From Lachnospiraceae bacterium (GTDB lineage Bacteria; Bacillota; Clostridia; Lachnospirales; Lachnospiraceae), in assembly GCA_014804795.1 (NCBI GenBank), contig JAAUZC010000043.1, positions 1 to 45,212 on the forward strand: a DNA stretch of 45,212 bases, given 5' to 3'. The translations under genes were made by a program, and so were the position numbers. The notes below the pieces were generated by a model, which did no database searches, was not told where the DNA came from, and saw only the letters and a list, made by a program, of their open reading frames with translations. Position 1 is the first letter of the stretch, and each line of letters starts with the position of its first letter. Positions 20,319 to 25,165 of the stretch are shown here, one piece after another.

Positions 20319-21836
20319 TTGGAAAAGCTATATTACATGGGAATTGATGTAGGAACAACAGGGTGTAAAACAGTCATATTTGACCAGGACGGCATCTCTT
20401 TTGGAGAAGCATACCGTGAATACCCGGTGATCTGCACGATGCCTCATCAGGCAGAGCAGGATGCGGAACAGGTATTTGCATTACTTGTTCAAACGATGTC
20501 GGAAGCTGTCTCAAAAGCGGGAGTTAGGTCGGTGGAGGCGTTGAGCATCAGTGTTCAGGGAGACGCGGTCATGCCGGTGGATTCGGATTATCAGGTTCTG
20601 CATCATGTGATACTGGGGATGGATTATCGTCCTCATGAACAATGTGCGGAATACGGGAAGTTCCATGATGAGTGGAAACTATATGAGATAACAGGACAGC
20701 CGCTTCATCCCATTAATATGATGGCAAAAATCATGTGGTTTTATAAAATGAAACCGCAGATTGCAGAACGGACTTATAAATTTATCACATACGCTGAGTT
20801 TATCTTGCAGCGGCTGGGCGGAAACGCGGTGATCGATGATACGATGGCAAGCCGTTCTATGGGGTATGATATTGAGAAACGGTGCTGGTCTGAAGAGGTC
20901 CTGGAGACAATGTGCATTCCAAAAGAAAAACTTTCCGGGGTCTGCCGTTCCGGAAGTCCGGTGGGAAAAATGGACAGTCATCTGGCAGAGCAGATCGGTC
21001 TGAAAAATTGTCCGGTATTGATTGCGGGAGGCCATGATCAGCCAATAGGAGCCGTGGGCGCGGGTGTGATCCGGGAAGGCATGGCGGTAGATTCGACAGG
21101 GACTGCGGAAGTATTGTCAACCACATATCGAGAACCCAAAATCAATCAAGATATGTATCACTGTTATTATTCCTGCTATTATCATGCGGTGCAGGATATG
21201 TATTTTTCCTTTGCACATATGCAGACCGGAGGTATATTGCAGCGCTGGTACAGAGATACATTCGGGCATCAGGAGGAGCAAGAGGCAGAAAAACTGGGGC
21301 GGAATTTTTACGAATATGCCCAGACAAAATGTAAAGCTCAGCCGTCGTCCGTATTAGTACTTCCTCATTTTAACGGCAGCGGCACCCCTTTGTGTGATAT
21401 GGACAGCAAAGGGGCGATTGTGGGATTGACATTATCTTCCACAAGACATGACGTGTTAAAGGGGATTTTGGACAGCCTGTGTTATGAGCTGCGGACCAAT
21501 CTGGATGCAATGCAGAAATCCGGGATTGCGATCCATGAATTGCGTGCGGTGGGCGGAGGTGCCCGTTCTCCCATGTGGCTGCAGACAAAGGCCAATATTA
21601 TGGGAACTGTCATAAAAACGATGGAGAGCAAAGAGGCAGGATGTCTGGGAGCAGCGGTACTGGCCGCGGCCGGAACGGGATATTACTCTTCGCTGGAAGA
21701 AGCATGCGGGAAAATGGTGCGTACTGCGGATTGTTATGAGCCGGAACCGGAAATGCAGAAACGTTACAATGAAAAATATGAGGTGTATCTGGAACTGTAT
21801 GAAAGTCTGAAAGCAATTAACAGGCGTCTGGGATAA
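20319..21836 (+). CDS. FGGY-family carbohydrate kinase
   Basis: A 505-residue kinase of usual length for xylulokinase, ribulokinase and fuculokinase relatives. The ATP/phosphate motif MGIDVGTTGCKTVIFDQDG opens the protein. LIAGGHDQPIGAVGAGVI and DSTGTAEVLS mark the middle, and AVGGGARSPMWLQTKANIMG is the second FGGY signature. It starts at TTG 20319, with GAGAGG about a dozen bases upstream; ATG 20337 is a weaker alternative. It phosphorylates the sugar, ketose or acid made in this pathway. It is the last gene of the operon and is followed by a hairpin. Confidence 0.93.
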   Translation: MEKLYYMGIDVGTTGCKTVIFDQDGISFGEAYREYPVICTMPHQAEQDAEQVFALLVQTMSEAVSKAGVRSVEALSISVQGDAVMPVDSDYQVLHHVILGMDYRPHEQCAEYGKFHDEWKLYEITGQPLHPINMMAKIMWFYKMKPQIAERTYKFITYAEFILQRLGGNAVIDDTMASRSMGYDIEKRCWSEEVLETMCIPKEKLSGVCRSGSPVGKMDSHLAEQIGLKNCPVLIAGGHDQPIGAVGAGVIREGMAVDSTGTAEVLSTTYREPKINQDMYHCYYSCYYHAVQDMYFSFAHMQTGGILQRWYRDTFGHQEEQEAEKLGRNFYEYAQTKCKAQPSSVLVLPHFNGSGTPLCDMDSKGAIVGLTLSSTRHDVLKGILDSLCYELRTNLDAMQKSGIAIHELRAVGGGARSPMWLQTKANIMGTVIKTMESKEAGCLGAAVLAAAGTGYYSSLEEACGKMVRTADCYEPEPEMQKRYNEKYEVYLELYESLKAINRRLG

Positions 21837-21865: not shown

Positions 21866-21909
21866 AAATGGGGAGCAGGTAATCCATATAAGGTACCTGC
21901 TCCCCATTT
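21866..21909. terminator. bidirectional hairpin between convergent kinase and copA
   Basis: A perfect 16-bp stem (21866-21881 with 21894-21909, 12-base loop) lies between convergent genes. The T-run is weak on both sides. The core GGGGAGCAGGTA recurs in the terminator at 11414-11468. Confidence 0.75.
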
Positions 21910-21920
21910 GACTTTAAAAA

Positions 21921-22136
21921 TTAAGCACGAACGATTTCTGTTACCTCATAACCCGCATCAGCGACGGCTTTTTTAAATACATCGTCGGCGATTTCTCTGT
22001 CTGCTTTGATGTAGGCTTTCTTTTCTTCGAGATTTACCTCTGCGGTGACGCCCTCGATCGCATTTAAAGCGTCAGAGGTGTGTTTCTGGCAGTGCATGCA
22101 CATCATGCCCTCAATTGTTAATGTCAGTTCTTTCAT
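21921..22136 (-). CDS. copZ: possible internally initiated CopZ copper chaperone within copA
   Basis: Inside copA and in the same frame, AAGGAG (22145-22150) stands eight bases before an ATG at 22136. Translation from there gives 71 residues, MKELTLTIEGMMCMHCQKH at the start, which is the normal length and composition of a free CopZ chaperone. The strong ribosome site suggests two products: the full ATPase with a tethered chaperone and free CopZ. Whether the internal start is used cannot be seen from sequence. It may be a remnant of two separate genes that became fused. Confidence 0.6.
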   Translation of the reverse strand: MKELTLTIEGMMCMHCQKHTSDALNAIEGVTAEVNLEEKKAYIKADREIADDVFKKAVADAGYEVTEIVRA

Positions 22137-24704
22137 GGCTTGTTCTCCTTTTTCTGATATAGTTGTTTGTAGTGCGTTTTGTTCATCTGCTTCTATCATA
22201 GTTTTTGCAGATGCATTTTGCAATAGATTTTCCTGCGGATCTATTAAAGGCCGGGTGGTGACAGAGGTGTCATTTTTACTTTGCGCAGTCTCTGTCTTCA
22301 GTGGTTTAAAAAACCGAAGGCGCAGTGCATTGGTGACAACACAGACGCTGCTTAAGCTCATGGCAGCCGCACCGAACATCGGATTTAATTTCAGCCCGAA
22401 AGCCGGATAGAGCAGGCCTGCCGCAAGGGGAATGCCGATACTGTTATAAAAGAATGCCCAAAACAGGTTTTCTCTGATGTTGCGGATAACAGACTTGCTG
22501 AGTCTGATTGCATTGACAGCGTCCATCAGGTCATTTTTGATCAGCACGGCGTCCGCGCTTTCTATCGCCACATCGGTCCCGGCGCCGATCGCAATGCCGA
22601 CGTCCGCCCTGGCAAGAGCGGGCGCATCATTGATGCCGTCCCCGATCATTGCAACCTTATGACCGTTTTCCATCAATTCTCTGATCTTTTCCTCTTTCTG
22701 ATGGGGCAGTACCTGCGCAATCACATGTTTGATGTGGAGCCGCTTTCCGATGGCAGCCGCAGTTTTCTCATTGTCGCCGGTGAGCATAACCACATCAATG
22801 CCGAGTTTTTCAAATTGTCTGATCGCTTCAAGGCTGGAGGGCTTTTCCACATCGGCTACAGCGATCATGCCGAGGATGCGGCAATTGTCTCCGGTATCTG
22901 CGGGCTGTGCGGATGAGCTTTTTTCCGCAAACAGCAATACGGTCTTTCCTTCCTCTGAAAGCCTTGTATAGTCCGTTTCGATGGGAGATAAGTCAAATCC
23001 TTCCTCCTGCATCAGTCTCATGTTTCCGGCATAGTAGTGGTTGCCCTGATAAGTACAGCGGACGCCTTTGCCGAAGAGTGCTTCGAAGTTTTCCGCCTGC
23101 AGGAACGCGTCGGTAGTGGTTCCTTTTTCGTTTGTGACATTGGTGTCATTTTTGCCGCTGTCGGAAAATCCCGTCTGCTTTCCTGCATACTGCAAAATAG
23201 CTTCAGCCAAAGGATGTTCGCTCTGTTTTTCCAGCATTACCGCCACATCCAGCAGTTCTTTTTCAGAGATACCGACGGGCAGTATATCTGTCACCTCCGG
23301 TTTCCCCTGTGTGATCGTCCCGGTCTTATCGAGAACTACGGTATCAATGGAGTGAGCGGTTTCCAATGCTTCTCCCGATTTGATCAAGATACCGTTTTCT
23401 GCGCCCTTGCCCGTGCCCACCATGATTGCGACAGGCGTGGCAAGTCCCAGTGCACAGGGACAGGAGATGACAAGGACACATATTCCGATGGACAGTGAAA
23501 ACTCAAAGCCTGCGCCGGAAATCATCCAGATAAGAAAAGCGAGTAAGGCGATACACATCACTGTGGGCACAAAGATTCCCGCTATTTTGTCCGCCAGTTT
23601 TGCGATGGGCGCTTTGGAGGCGCTGGCCTCTTCCACAAGGCGGATGATCTGGTTGATCGTTGTATTTTCTCCGGTTTTTACAGCTTTCATCCGGAAGTAG
23701 CCGCTCTTATTGAGAGAGGCGGAGATCACGGTATCGCCCGCTGTCTTTTCCACCGGAATACTTTCTCCGGTGATAGCGGATTCATCCAGAGAGGAAGAAC
23801 CGGAAGTGATAACGCCGTCCACCGGCACATAAGCGCCGGGCTTTATGATGACGATATCGCCTTCTTTTACCTGATCTGCGGGCACTTCCTGTTCCGTGCC
23901 GTCAGACGTCAGCAGCAGTGCTGTTTTAGGTGCAAGATTTACCAGTTTTTCAATGGCTTTGCTGGTCTGTGATTTGGAACGGCTTTCCAGATATTTGCCG
24001 AGGGTAATCAAGGTCAAAATCGTTCCCGCGGATTCAAAGTAGATTTCCATACCGTAACGTTCCACCAGTTTCATATCCTGATGCCCAAGCCCGTAACTTA
24101 AACGGAAGATAGCGAACAGCCCGTAGATTGCAGCAGCGGCAGAACCCACTGCCACCAGAGAATCCATGTTGGGACTTCTGCGAAACAGATTTTTGAAACC
24201 GTGAATAAAGTAATTGCGGTTTAAGTACATGATCGGCAAAAGCAGTAAAAACTGTGTAAAGGCAAAGGTCACTGTGTTTTCCGGGCCATGGAAAGCGTTC
24301 ATGATAAAAGTGGGCACCGGCAGGCCGAACCACTCATAAAACATGTGGAACATGGATACGTATATGAGCGGAATCCAGAAAACAAAGGAAAAGATTAACC
24401 TTGTTTTCATTTCCTGCTTGGACTTCTGCATGGCAGCCTGCAGGGGATTTTCGTCGGAATGTCCGGTGTTTTTACCGGTGGAAGCAGTGTTCAGGGAGGA
24501 GGCGCCGTAACCGGCTTTCTCCACAGCTGCAATAATGTCACCGGAACTTAGGCGGGTGTCATCGTAGGCAGTCTGCATGCTTCCTGTGAGCAGGTTGACT
24601 TCGCATGTATTGATACCATCCAGGGCGGAGACGCATTTTTCCACCCGGGAAGAGCAGGCGGAGCAGGTCATGCCTGTCACTGCAAATTTTTCTTTTTTGA
24701 TCAT
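21921..24704 (-). CDS. copA: copper-translocating P1B ATPase with fused C-terminal CopZ-like domain
   Basis: A 927-residue Cu(I) export ATPase. The N-terminal HMA domain has GMTCSACSSRVEK (Cys at about 14 and 17). The transmembrane metal site is SCPCALGLATP (about 413). The phosphorylation motif DKTGTITQG is near 457, SEHPLAEAI near 490, and MIGDGINDAPALARADVGIA near 685. After the last helices comes a linker of about 60 residues and then a second HMA domain with GMMCMHCQKH. Usual CopA proteins of this type have 740-820 residues, so the C-terminal domain is an addition. It exports cytoplasmic copper. csoR lies 15 bases upstream, so copper induction is expected. Confidence 0.95.
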   Translation of the reverse strand: MIKKEKFAVTGMTCSACSSRVEKCVSALDGINTCEVNLLTGSMQTAYDDTRLSSGDIIAAVEKAGYGASSLNTASTGKNTGHSDENPLQAAMQKSKQEMKTRLIFSFVFWIPLIYVSMFHMFYEWFGLPVPTFIMNAFHGPENTVTFAFTQFLLLLPIMYLNRNYFIHGFKNLFRRSPNMDSLVAVGSAAAAIYGLFAIFRLSYGLGHQDMKLVERYGMEIYFESAGTILTLITLGKYLESRSKSQTSKAIEKLVNLAPKTALLLTSDGTEQEVPADQVKEGDIVIIKPGAYVPVDGVITSGSSSLDESAITGESIPVEKTAGDTVISASLNKSGYFRMKAVKTGENTTINQIIRLVEEASASKAPIAKLADKIAGIFVPTVMCIALLAFLIWMISGAGFEFSLSIGICVLVISCPCALGLATPVAIMVGTGKGAENGILIKSGEALETAHSIDTVVLDKTGTITQGKPEVTDILPVGISEKELLDVAVMLEKQSEHPLAEAILQYAGKQTGFSDSGKNDTNVTNEKGTTTDAFLQAENFEALFGKGVRCTYQGNHYYAGNMRLMQEEGFDLSPIETDYTRLSEEGKTVLLFAEKSSSAQPADTGDNCRILGMIAVADVEKPSSLEAIRQFEKLGIDVVMLTGDNEKTAAAIGKRLHIKHVIAQVLPHQKEEKIRELMENGHKVAMIGDGINDAPALARADVGIAIGAGTDVAIESADAVLIKNDLMDAVNAIRLSKSVIRNIRENLFWAFFYNSIGIPLAAGLLYPAFGLKLNPMFGAAAMSLSSVCVVTNALRLRFFKPLKTETAQSKNDTSVTTRPLIDPQENLLQNASAKTMIEADEQNALQTTISEKGEQAMKELTLTIEGMMCMHCQKHTSDALNAIEGVTAEVNLEEKKAYIKADREIADDVFKKAVADAGYEVTEIVRA

Positions 24705-24719
24705 GATGTTGCCTCCGTA

Positions 24720-25049
24720 TTATTTCATCAGTTTCTTAAGTGTATCGCAGAGTTCATCCACAACTTCGTCGTTGCCGTTACGTATATTATCCGCAACACA
24801 GGTTTTAATATGCCGGGAGAGTAATTCCTTGTTGAAAGCGTTAAGCGCGGAGGAGATAGCGCTGACCTGTGTAATGATATCCACACAGTATCGCTCATCC
24901 TCCACCATGGCGCGTATGCCGCGCACTTGACCTTCAATGCGGTTTAAGCGGTGAATTAAGTCAAGATATTCTTTTTCTTCTCTGTGTTTATGTTTTAAAA
25001 AGCATTCACTGTCGCAACAGCTGTTTGTCTGATTTTGTTTCGAATTCAT
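24720..25049 (-). CDS. csoR: CsoR-family copper-sensing repressor
   Basis: About 109 residues. The core four-helix DUF156 fold begins at LIHRLNRIEGQVRGIRAMVE. The Cu(I) triad is visible as Cys in ERYCVDI and His and Cys in SRHIKTCV. The N-terminus is Cys- and His-rich (NSCCDSECFLKHKH), an extension that may add metal ligands. I chose ATG 25049, which follows GGGGG by nine bases; the frame extends upstream to 25094. It is the first gene of the csoR-copA operon, 15 bases before copA, with a matching operator over its promoter. Confidence 0.93.
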   Translation of the reverse strand: MNSKQNQTNSCCDSECFLKHKHREEKEYLDLIHRLNRIEGQVRGIRAMVEDERYCVDIITQVSAISSALNAFNKELLSRHIKTCVADNIRNGNDEVVDELCDTLKKLMK

Positions 25050-25120
25050 GATCATTGTCCCCCTGTGTAAAAGCAACGATCGCATGCTTCGCAATCGCTC
25101 TTATGCTAACAACGTCTAAA

Positions 25121-25165
25121 ATACCCCCATGGGGTATATTATACAGAAAAAGAAAGTATTGTCAA
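25121..25165 (-). promoter_or_regulatory. csoR-copA promoter and CsoR operator
   Basis: On the minus strand TTGACA (25160-25165), 16 bases and TATAAT (25138-25143) form a strong promoter. Directly downstream is ATACCCCCATGGGGTAT (25121-25137), the G/C-tract palindrome typical of CsoR boxes. Copper would relieve repression. Confidence 0.88.

Follow-up and report, generated by a model that had tools for sequence, protein, structure and literature searches.

Can a gene for a copper-exporting ATPase also supply a free copper chaperone from within its own reading frame? The question is raised by a 45,212-nucleotide stretch of DNA from a Lachnospiraceae bacterium (GenBank assembly GCA_014804795.1, contig JAAUZC010000043.1; hereafter "the window"), in which a minus-strand open reading frame (ORF), here termed copA(Z), encodes a P-type ATPase that ends in a domain resembling the chaperone CopZ. 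Analysis of the window and of related loci identified copA(Z) as very probably a two-product gene, giving a pump with a tethered CopZ-like domain and, by internal initiation of translation, free CopZ.

A copper ATPase and a CopZ-like domain in one reading frame

The initial annotation described an ATPase frame that continues through a linker into a complete CopZ-like domain, without naming the strand. The ORF was indeed unbroken over 927 codons on the minus strand, with its sole stop codon at its end. Pfam domains included E1-E2_ATPase (PF00122), Hydrolase (PF00702), and HMA in two stretches, and the NCBIfam copper-translocating model TIGR01511 was passed (583 bits; cut-off 397) along with the broad cadmium model TIGR01512 (405 bits; cut-off 313.5). 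The P-type ATPase core motifs DKTGT and GDGINDAP were both present. Cu+ P1B ATPases carry the signature CPC in the membrane and YN and MxxSS in the last helices, which was fitted by the copA(Z) transmembrane motifs SCPCALG, FFYN, and MSLSS. By these sequence criteria copA(Z) is a Cu+-transporting P1B ATPase (CopA).

After the pump, a linker of ~60 residues leads into the second HMA domain (GMMCMHC), which reaches the stop codon. The claim that AAGGAG stands eight bases before the ATG of a 71-residue CopZ was accurate, as the motif occupies 22150-22145 and is separated by a spacer of exactly 8 nucleotides (nt) from the ATG at 22136 (residue 857). This places a start codon and a ribosome-binding site (RBS) inside a longer ORF with the same frame and stop, and the arrangement is conserved. 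The 71-residue product matched the Pfam HMA model (PF00403; 40.1 bits, cut-off 24.8) and consists of a single HMA domain of ~70 residues with the MxCxxC motif (here MMCMHC) that characterizes CopZ, and its PDB sequence matches included the CopZ structures 6ff2 and 1k0v. RNA fold energy at the internal site did not differ from that of shuffled sequences (z 0.53), revealing no notable structure there.

Conservation of the internal start site

A comparison of related genomes for separate or fused genes and for conservation of the internal site had been proposed in the initial annotation. A total of 320 loci were anchored, of which 268 were distinct once those identical in the last 330 nt were removed (240 fused and 28 split). 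The loci were mainly the top-scoring matches to two fused queries, with places chosen by hand from those lists, while 20 further places were picked for looking unfused (three already present as tails) and 20 loci already in the sample were lengthened for the tree. Genus labels, which mix codes and a few NCBI names, cover 258 of the 268 loci. An internal start was scored as kept where the best in-frame ATG near the domain start had a Shine-Dalgarno (SD) pairing to the 16S tail of -7 kcal/mol or lower, and the recoding and register analyses used an earlier set of 167 distinct linkers.

An ATG was found at the domain start in 229 of the 240 distinct fused loci, and an ATG with a strong SD (free energy ≤ -7 kcal/mol) was kept in 227. 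Among the 167 linkers, 161 had the ATG and 158 of these had an SD word, with the first G of the SD register 12-13 nt before the ATG in 141 of the 158. The motif was read in three codon registers (117, 39, and 2 loci, respectively). In seven close members of the genus (84-86 % protein identity to the window) the linkers differed in length and sequence, and despite this divergence GAAAAAGGAGAA and ATGAAAGAA were kept in all seven.

Synonymous recoding of the same peptides weakened the site (mean -10.9 observed vs. -7.9 recoded, standard deviation 0.22, z -13.9). Per locus, P ≤ 0.05 was reached in 14 of 161 only, single loci being seldom decisive because the peptide already favours purines. Shuffling of the linker codons gave a mean of -4.2, with P ≤ 0.05 in 132 of 154 loci. 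Codon choice followed the same pattern: the Lys codon before the site was AAG in 92 of 108 loci with Glu next (AAG GAG) and AAA in all 38 loci with Gly next (AAA GGA G), both choices spelling the SD against a linker background of 679 AAA and 317 AAG. Likewise, Glu at the site was encoded by GAG in 96/108 cases compared to 166/593 in linkers, and Gly by GGA in 37/38 compared to 101/276.

When the internal in-frame ATGs (~31 per gene) of 66 full-length fused genes, the window included, were ranked by anti-SD pairing, the homologous ATG came first in 47 genes (2.2 expected). Its median pairing (-10.8 kcal/mol) compared to -3.6 at other internal ATGs (n = 1959) and was about equal to that of presumed gene starts, defined as the ATG with the best pairing upstream of the first HMA motif (-10.4, n = 60). 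In a small control set of three proteins with tandem N-terminal HMAs, the second HMA had no Met at the matching place in any of the three (the position of Met was compared; L198 has AAAGGA nearby). Selection acts on the RNA sequence of the internal site, beyond the peptide, and these comparative sequence tests lend support to the internal initiation initially suggested.

Distribution and age of the fusion

The fusion was present in 9/9 genomes sampled from the window's genus (L004-L012), and none of the nine appeared in the lists of lost starts. Near relatives among the named matches were Bacterium 1XD8-76 and Lachnospiraceae metagenome-assembled genomes, and the pump was matched at E ≤ 1e-150 in 359 of the 397 genomes sampled from the family. 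Fused loci represented 193 genus labels, and those with a kept start 181. Outside the family, 24 of 29 loci in the class sample were fused, 23 of these 24 keeping the start, with 18 family codes; named Selenomonadaceae, Acidaminococcaceae, and Veillonellaceae also carry the fusion, and the cultured Anaerovibrio lipolyticus DSM 3074 shares it in frame. A short-linker variant was observed in L030, L032, L058, and L059, in which KRFKE(E/D), immediately following the last helix, contains the SD, and the start (ATG, but GTG in L059) precedes the motif by 15 codons.

The comparison of separate and fused genes showed that some relatives have copZ as a gene of its own: in several split relatives it has an SD of its own and immediately follows copA, at gaps of e.g., 8, 22, 28, 64, and 178 nt. 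An HMA-like ORF started within 500 nt downstream in 17 of the 28 split loci, some without a clear CopZ type, and 11 of the 28 had no such ORF in the 800 nt searched (L262, scored as split, stops 53 nt short of a contig end); L210 and L211 had an HMA-like ORF starting 709 and 726 nt away. The gene behind split copA in L209 and L338 was of a type with CGHCEAHVNDAVR, related to the distinct CopZ-like type described below.

A quick unrooted tree of 92 pump cores, weak at some inner forks, contained seven changes between the fused and split states, five of them forced by starred branches. A split clade of 13 stood apart, and seven split rows were nested among 69 fused rows. The tree suggests that the fused state is old and was later split several times, and it argues against a recent fusion because the nested split rows stand on long branches. 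Unless CopZ already had its own start, splitting of the gene by a stop codon or frameshift in the linker would do harm.

Loss of the start and separate copZ-like genes

Thirteen fused copies lacked a good ATG start. Downstream genes were counted in 232 of the 240 fused loci, the eight with <300 nt downstream being excluded, and a separate CopZ-like gene was found within 800 nt downstream in 7/13 loci with a lost start vs. 2/219 with a kept start (p 9e-9). With one locus per genus label the figures were 7/12 vs. 1/181 (p 3.5e-9). An earlier pass of the same contrast gave 3/6 vs. 2/156 (p 2.8e-4), where one of the two was a Zn/Cd-type HMA later filtered by motif. Nine loci had a downstream gene; in every case the closest relative lacking such a gene keeps a strong start, and seven of the nine have themselves a lost or weak start. 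This pattern suggests that loci with a separate copZ-like gene tend to abandon the internal start.

The genes behind fused copA in L139, L141, L190, L249, L251, and L310 belonged to a distinct CopZ-like type with CGMCE(A/S)HxN and VKKVxSS, and a PY(E/K)KKG tail was seen where the full ORF was read (L139, L141, L190, and L249).

Counter-evidence and alternative explanations

Several observations weigh against two products from copA(Z), or against the link between start loss and a downstream gene. The free short CopZ-like protein is a prediction from sequence, and it is named CopZ-like because it fell below the NCBIfam CopZ cut-offs (NF047957, 56.4 of 85 bits; NF033795, 49.7 of 91 bits; and NF033794, 45.2 of 95 bits). 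The 240 fused among 268 loci give no estimate of prevalence because sampling favoured high-scoring matches to fused queries and added places chosen for looking unfused, and in the wider family at least some genomes carry additional small, unclassified HMA ORFs. When GTG and TTG starts were allowed, the contrast in downstream genes dropped to 5/10 vs. 4/222 (p 5e-6). The near-duplicates L249 and L252 combine a downstream gene with a strong internal start, and if TTG or GTG is counted, L139 and L116 likewise have both a start and a downstream gene. L085, L108, L297, L321, and L322 had neither a start (even GTG or TTG) nor a downstream CopZ-like gene, and the sole start in L059 was GTG. In a tree from ~190 ATPase residues, the supported branches held one independent pair for loss vs. 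downstream gene, and for this reason the association may in part reflect kinship.

Chance occurrence of the SD was rejected by the recoding test, the ranking among internal ATGs, and the choice of Lys, Glu, and Gly codons. SD-like stretches within genes are thought to slow ribosomes, and the G-rich block could accordingly be a signal for ribosome pausing or domain folding, or encode a conserved peptide (e.g., a protease site), without any start; K-E was the commonest peptide at the site (108/229). A pause, however, needs no ATG at the fixed spacing found here, and the register shifts in the peptide while the RNA motif stays. The missing Met in the small tandem HMA control and the company of start loss with a separate downstream gene also argue against such a signal, which is judged highly improbable. 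Little more credence is given to a domain that is solely a tethered C-terminal metal-binding domain, with the SD and ATG as relics of an ancestral separate copZ. Relics would be expected right after fusion because several split relatives have a separate copZ with an SD behind copA, and the CopA of Archaeoglobus fulgidus has an additional copper site at its C-terminus (PMC7558416, excerpt). However, the SD and ATG persist over 193 genus labels and divergent linkers, under selection at the codon level in several registers, the nesting of split rows among fused ones marks the fusion as not recent, and the flip in Lys codon largely refutes an origin as relics.

The free CopZ might also come mainly from a second, internal transcript, with the internal RBS serving that short mRNA, although this is unlikely. 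A promoter-like block in the linker was shared by four of seven close genus members, and seven of its eight amino-acid-invariant codons were identical compared to 217/671 (32 %) over the ORF, while 1.7 % of 8-codon windows had seven or more identical in this post hoc test. Against it, the block was absent in L008-L010, a promoter scan performed at chance (four found vs. 4.0 expected), and 219 linkers showed no promoter enrichment (20 vs. 16.3 shuffled). An internal promoter is a possible second route in the window's genus, not a general one, and is compatible with a two-product copA(Z). A sequencing error, named initially as a possible refutation, or an assembly error that joined copA and copZ has a negligible probability and was rejected because the same in-frame fusion recurs in 240 distinct loci from 193 genus labels, A. 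lipolyticus DSM 3074 among them; no evidence supporting such an error was found.

Operon setting and other HMA genes

The copA(Z) gene stands in a probable csoR-copA(Z) copper operon (Table 1), as a CsoR-family gene, a perfect promoter, and a palindrome stand upstream of copA. The stop codon of the csoR-family gene lies 15 nt upstream of the copA ATG, and the palindrome presumably resembles a CsoR operator. Just past the copA(Z) stop, a 16-bp inverted repeat with a 12-nt loop was read from the sequence (window 21866-21909), beyond which a convergent gene on the plus strand (20319-21836) resembles, on visual inspection, an FGGY-type sugar kinase. The repeat may be a terminator shared by copA(Z) and the convergent gene.

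The window genome, which is 95 % complete and so could have an overlooked copZ, contained one other HMA ORF above the cut-off; this ORF is of the DLDCANC (Zn/Cd-like) type and immediately precedes a second metal ATPase gene. In the window's genus, 13 of the 16 listed standalone HMA ORFs were inspected and none was of the CopZ type, all having DLDCANC or EVDCANC.

Table 1. Features of the copA(Z) locus and short HMA ORFs of the genome and genus (positions in the window unless a genome handle is given).
Feature	Position	Strand	Remarks
copA(Z)	21921..24704	minus	927-residue Cu+-type P1B ATPase; N-terminal HMA, ATPase core, linker, and C-terminal CopZ-like HMA in one frame
N-terminal HMA domain (GMTCSAC)	24507..24686	minus	PF00403, 55.6 bits
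Linker from last ATPase helix to C-terminal domain	22137..22316	minus	Length and sequence variable even within the genus; SD block kept
Internal Shine-Dalgarno AAGGAG	22145..22150	minus	Conserved; codon-level selection in relatives
Internal start codon ATG	22134..22136	minus	Met857 of the long product
71-residue CopZ-like product, MxCxHC motif	21921..22136	minus	Predicted free chaperone; HMA match and CopZ structure matches by sequence
Promoter-like TTGCAA-17-TATGAT	22195-22223	minus	In linker, ~59 nt before the internal ATG
CsoR-family copper repressor gene	24720..25094	minus	PF02583, 107 bits; likely start ATG at 25055, from sequence
Palindrome ATACCCCATGGGGGTAT	25121..25137	minus	Directly after the -10 box
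Promoter TTGACA-16-TATAAT	25138..25165	minus	12/12 consensus matches; putative promoter of the csoR-copA(Z) operon
Short HMA ORF, window genome (L002)	G000:C53:53981-54127		DLDCANC type
Short HMA ORFs, genus loci	L349, L351-L355, L360, L362-L366		DLDCANC or EVDCANC

Proposed mechanism and comparison with known systems

In the proposed mechanism, ribosomes starting at 24704 would synthesize the copper exporter, to which a linker of low conservation ties the CopZ-like domain, and other ribosomes would bind AAGGAG on the same mRNA and start at Met857 to give a free 71-residue CopZ-like chaperone. Under copper, CsoR would lift and one message would provide pump and chaperone together. From what is known of CopZ and CopA, possible roles of the tethered HMA are delivery to the pump or copper sensing, and those of the free copy are collection of Cu(I) for transfer to CopA or for buffering. 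That ribosomes use the site in cells, and in what ratio the two products arise, we infer from sequence.

Programmed -1 frameshifting in Escherichia coli copA was reportedly described by Meydan and by Drees, both in 2017 (cited in PMC7558416). Through this event the E. coli gene yields a free putative copper chaperone in addition to the pump (PMC5009743, excerpt). The comparison drawn in the initial annotation is valid for this outcome, as one copA gene yields a pump and a free putative chaperone of ~70 residues in E. coli and would do so in the window. The route is unlike, since the E. coli chaperone is N-terminal and arises by a frameshift and early stop, whereas that predicted in the window is C-terminal, internally started, and in the order of a copA-copZ tandem. 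Listeria monocytogenes has a csoR-copA-copZ operon (PMC4938975, excerpt) with the same order of CsoR, CopA, and CopZ; however, its copZ is separate, whereas in the window it is joined in frame to copA and has kept its own RBS.

In-frame internal starts give the second product of two-polypeptide phage endolysins (PMC9430671, excerpt) and are used in Rpn L/S (PMC10327210, excerpt) and Cas11 (PMC11899642, excerpt). In all of these, as predicted for copA(Z), a shorter second product comes from an internal in-frame start, which gives the C-terminal part in endolysins and Rpn. They are unrelated proteins, whereas the case in the window combines a membrane pump and a soluble metal donor. The A. fulgidus CopA, which is not known to have an internal start, resembles copA(Z) in its extra C-terminal copper site. 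No description of internal initiation of a CopZ domain in copA was recognized among the top-ranked matches in 5.39 million open-access papers, a search that left subscription journals mostly outside. The kind of mechanism is known and its use in copA seems to be new.

Implications for copper handling in gut Clostridia

In gut Firmicutes, CsoR was described as controlling CopA with no CopZ-type chaperone, an absence termed notable, and some distant HMA proteins in the CsoR regulon were considered as possible chaperones (PMC4938975, excerpt). A copA-internal CopZ can explain this published absence. It is likely that the CopZ of gut Clostridia is not absent and exists as an in-frame, independently translated C-terminal gene within copA, both in the Lachnospiraceae and in no fewer than 18 further families of the class. 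Where E. coli relies on frameshifting to obtain a pump and a chaperone from one gene, this would be a second answer to the same problem, ancient and stable, and tending to disappear where a separate copZ-like gene is available. Annotation of whole ORFs misses such conserved internal genes. The result points to two distant groups of bacteria that arrived, through unlike translational mechanisms, at a single gene for pump and free chaperone, and for that reason a coupled supply of free chaperone may matter.

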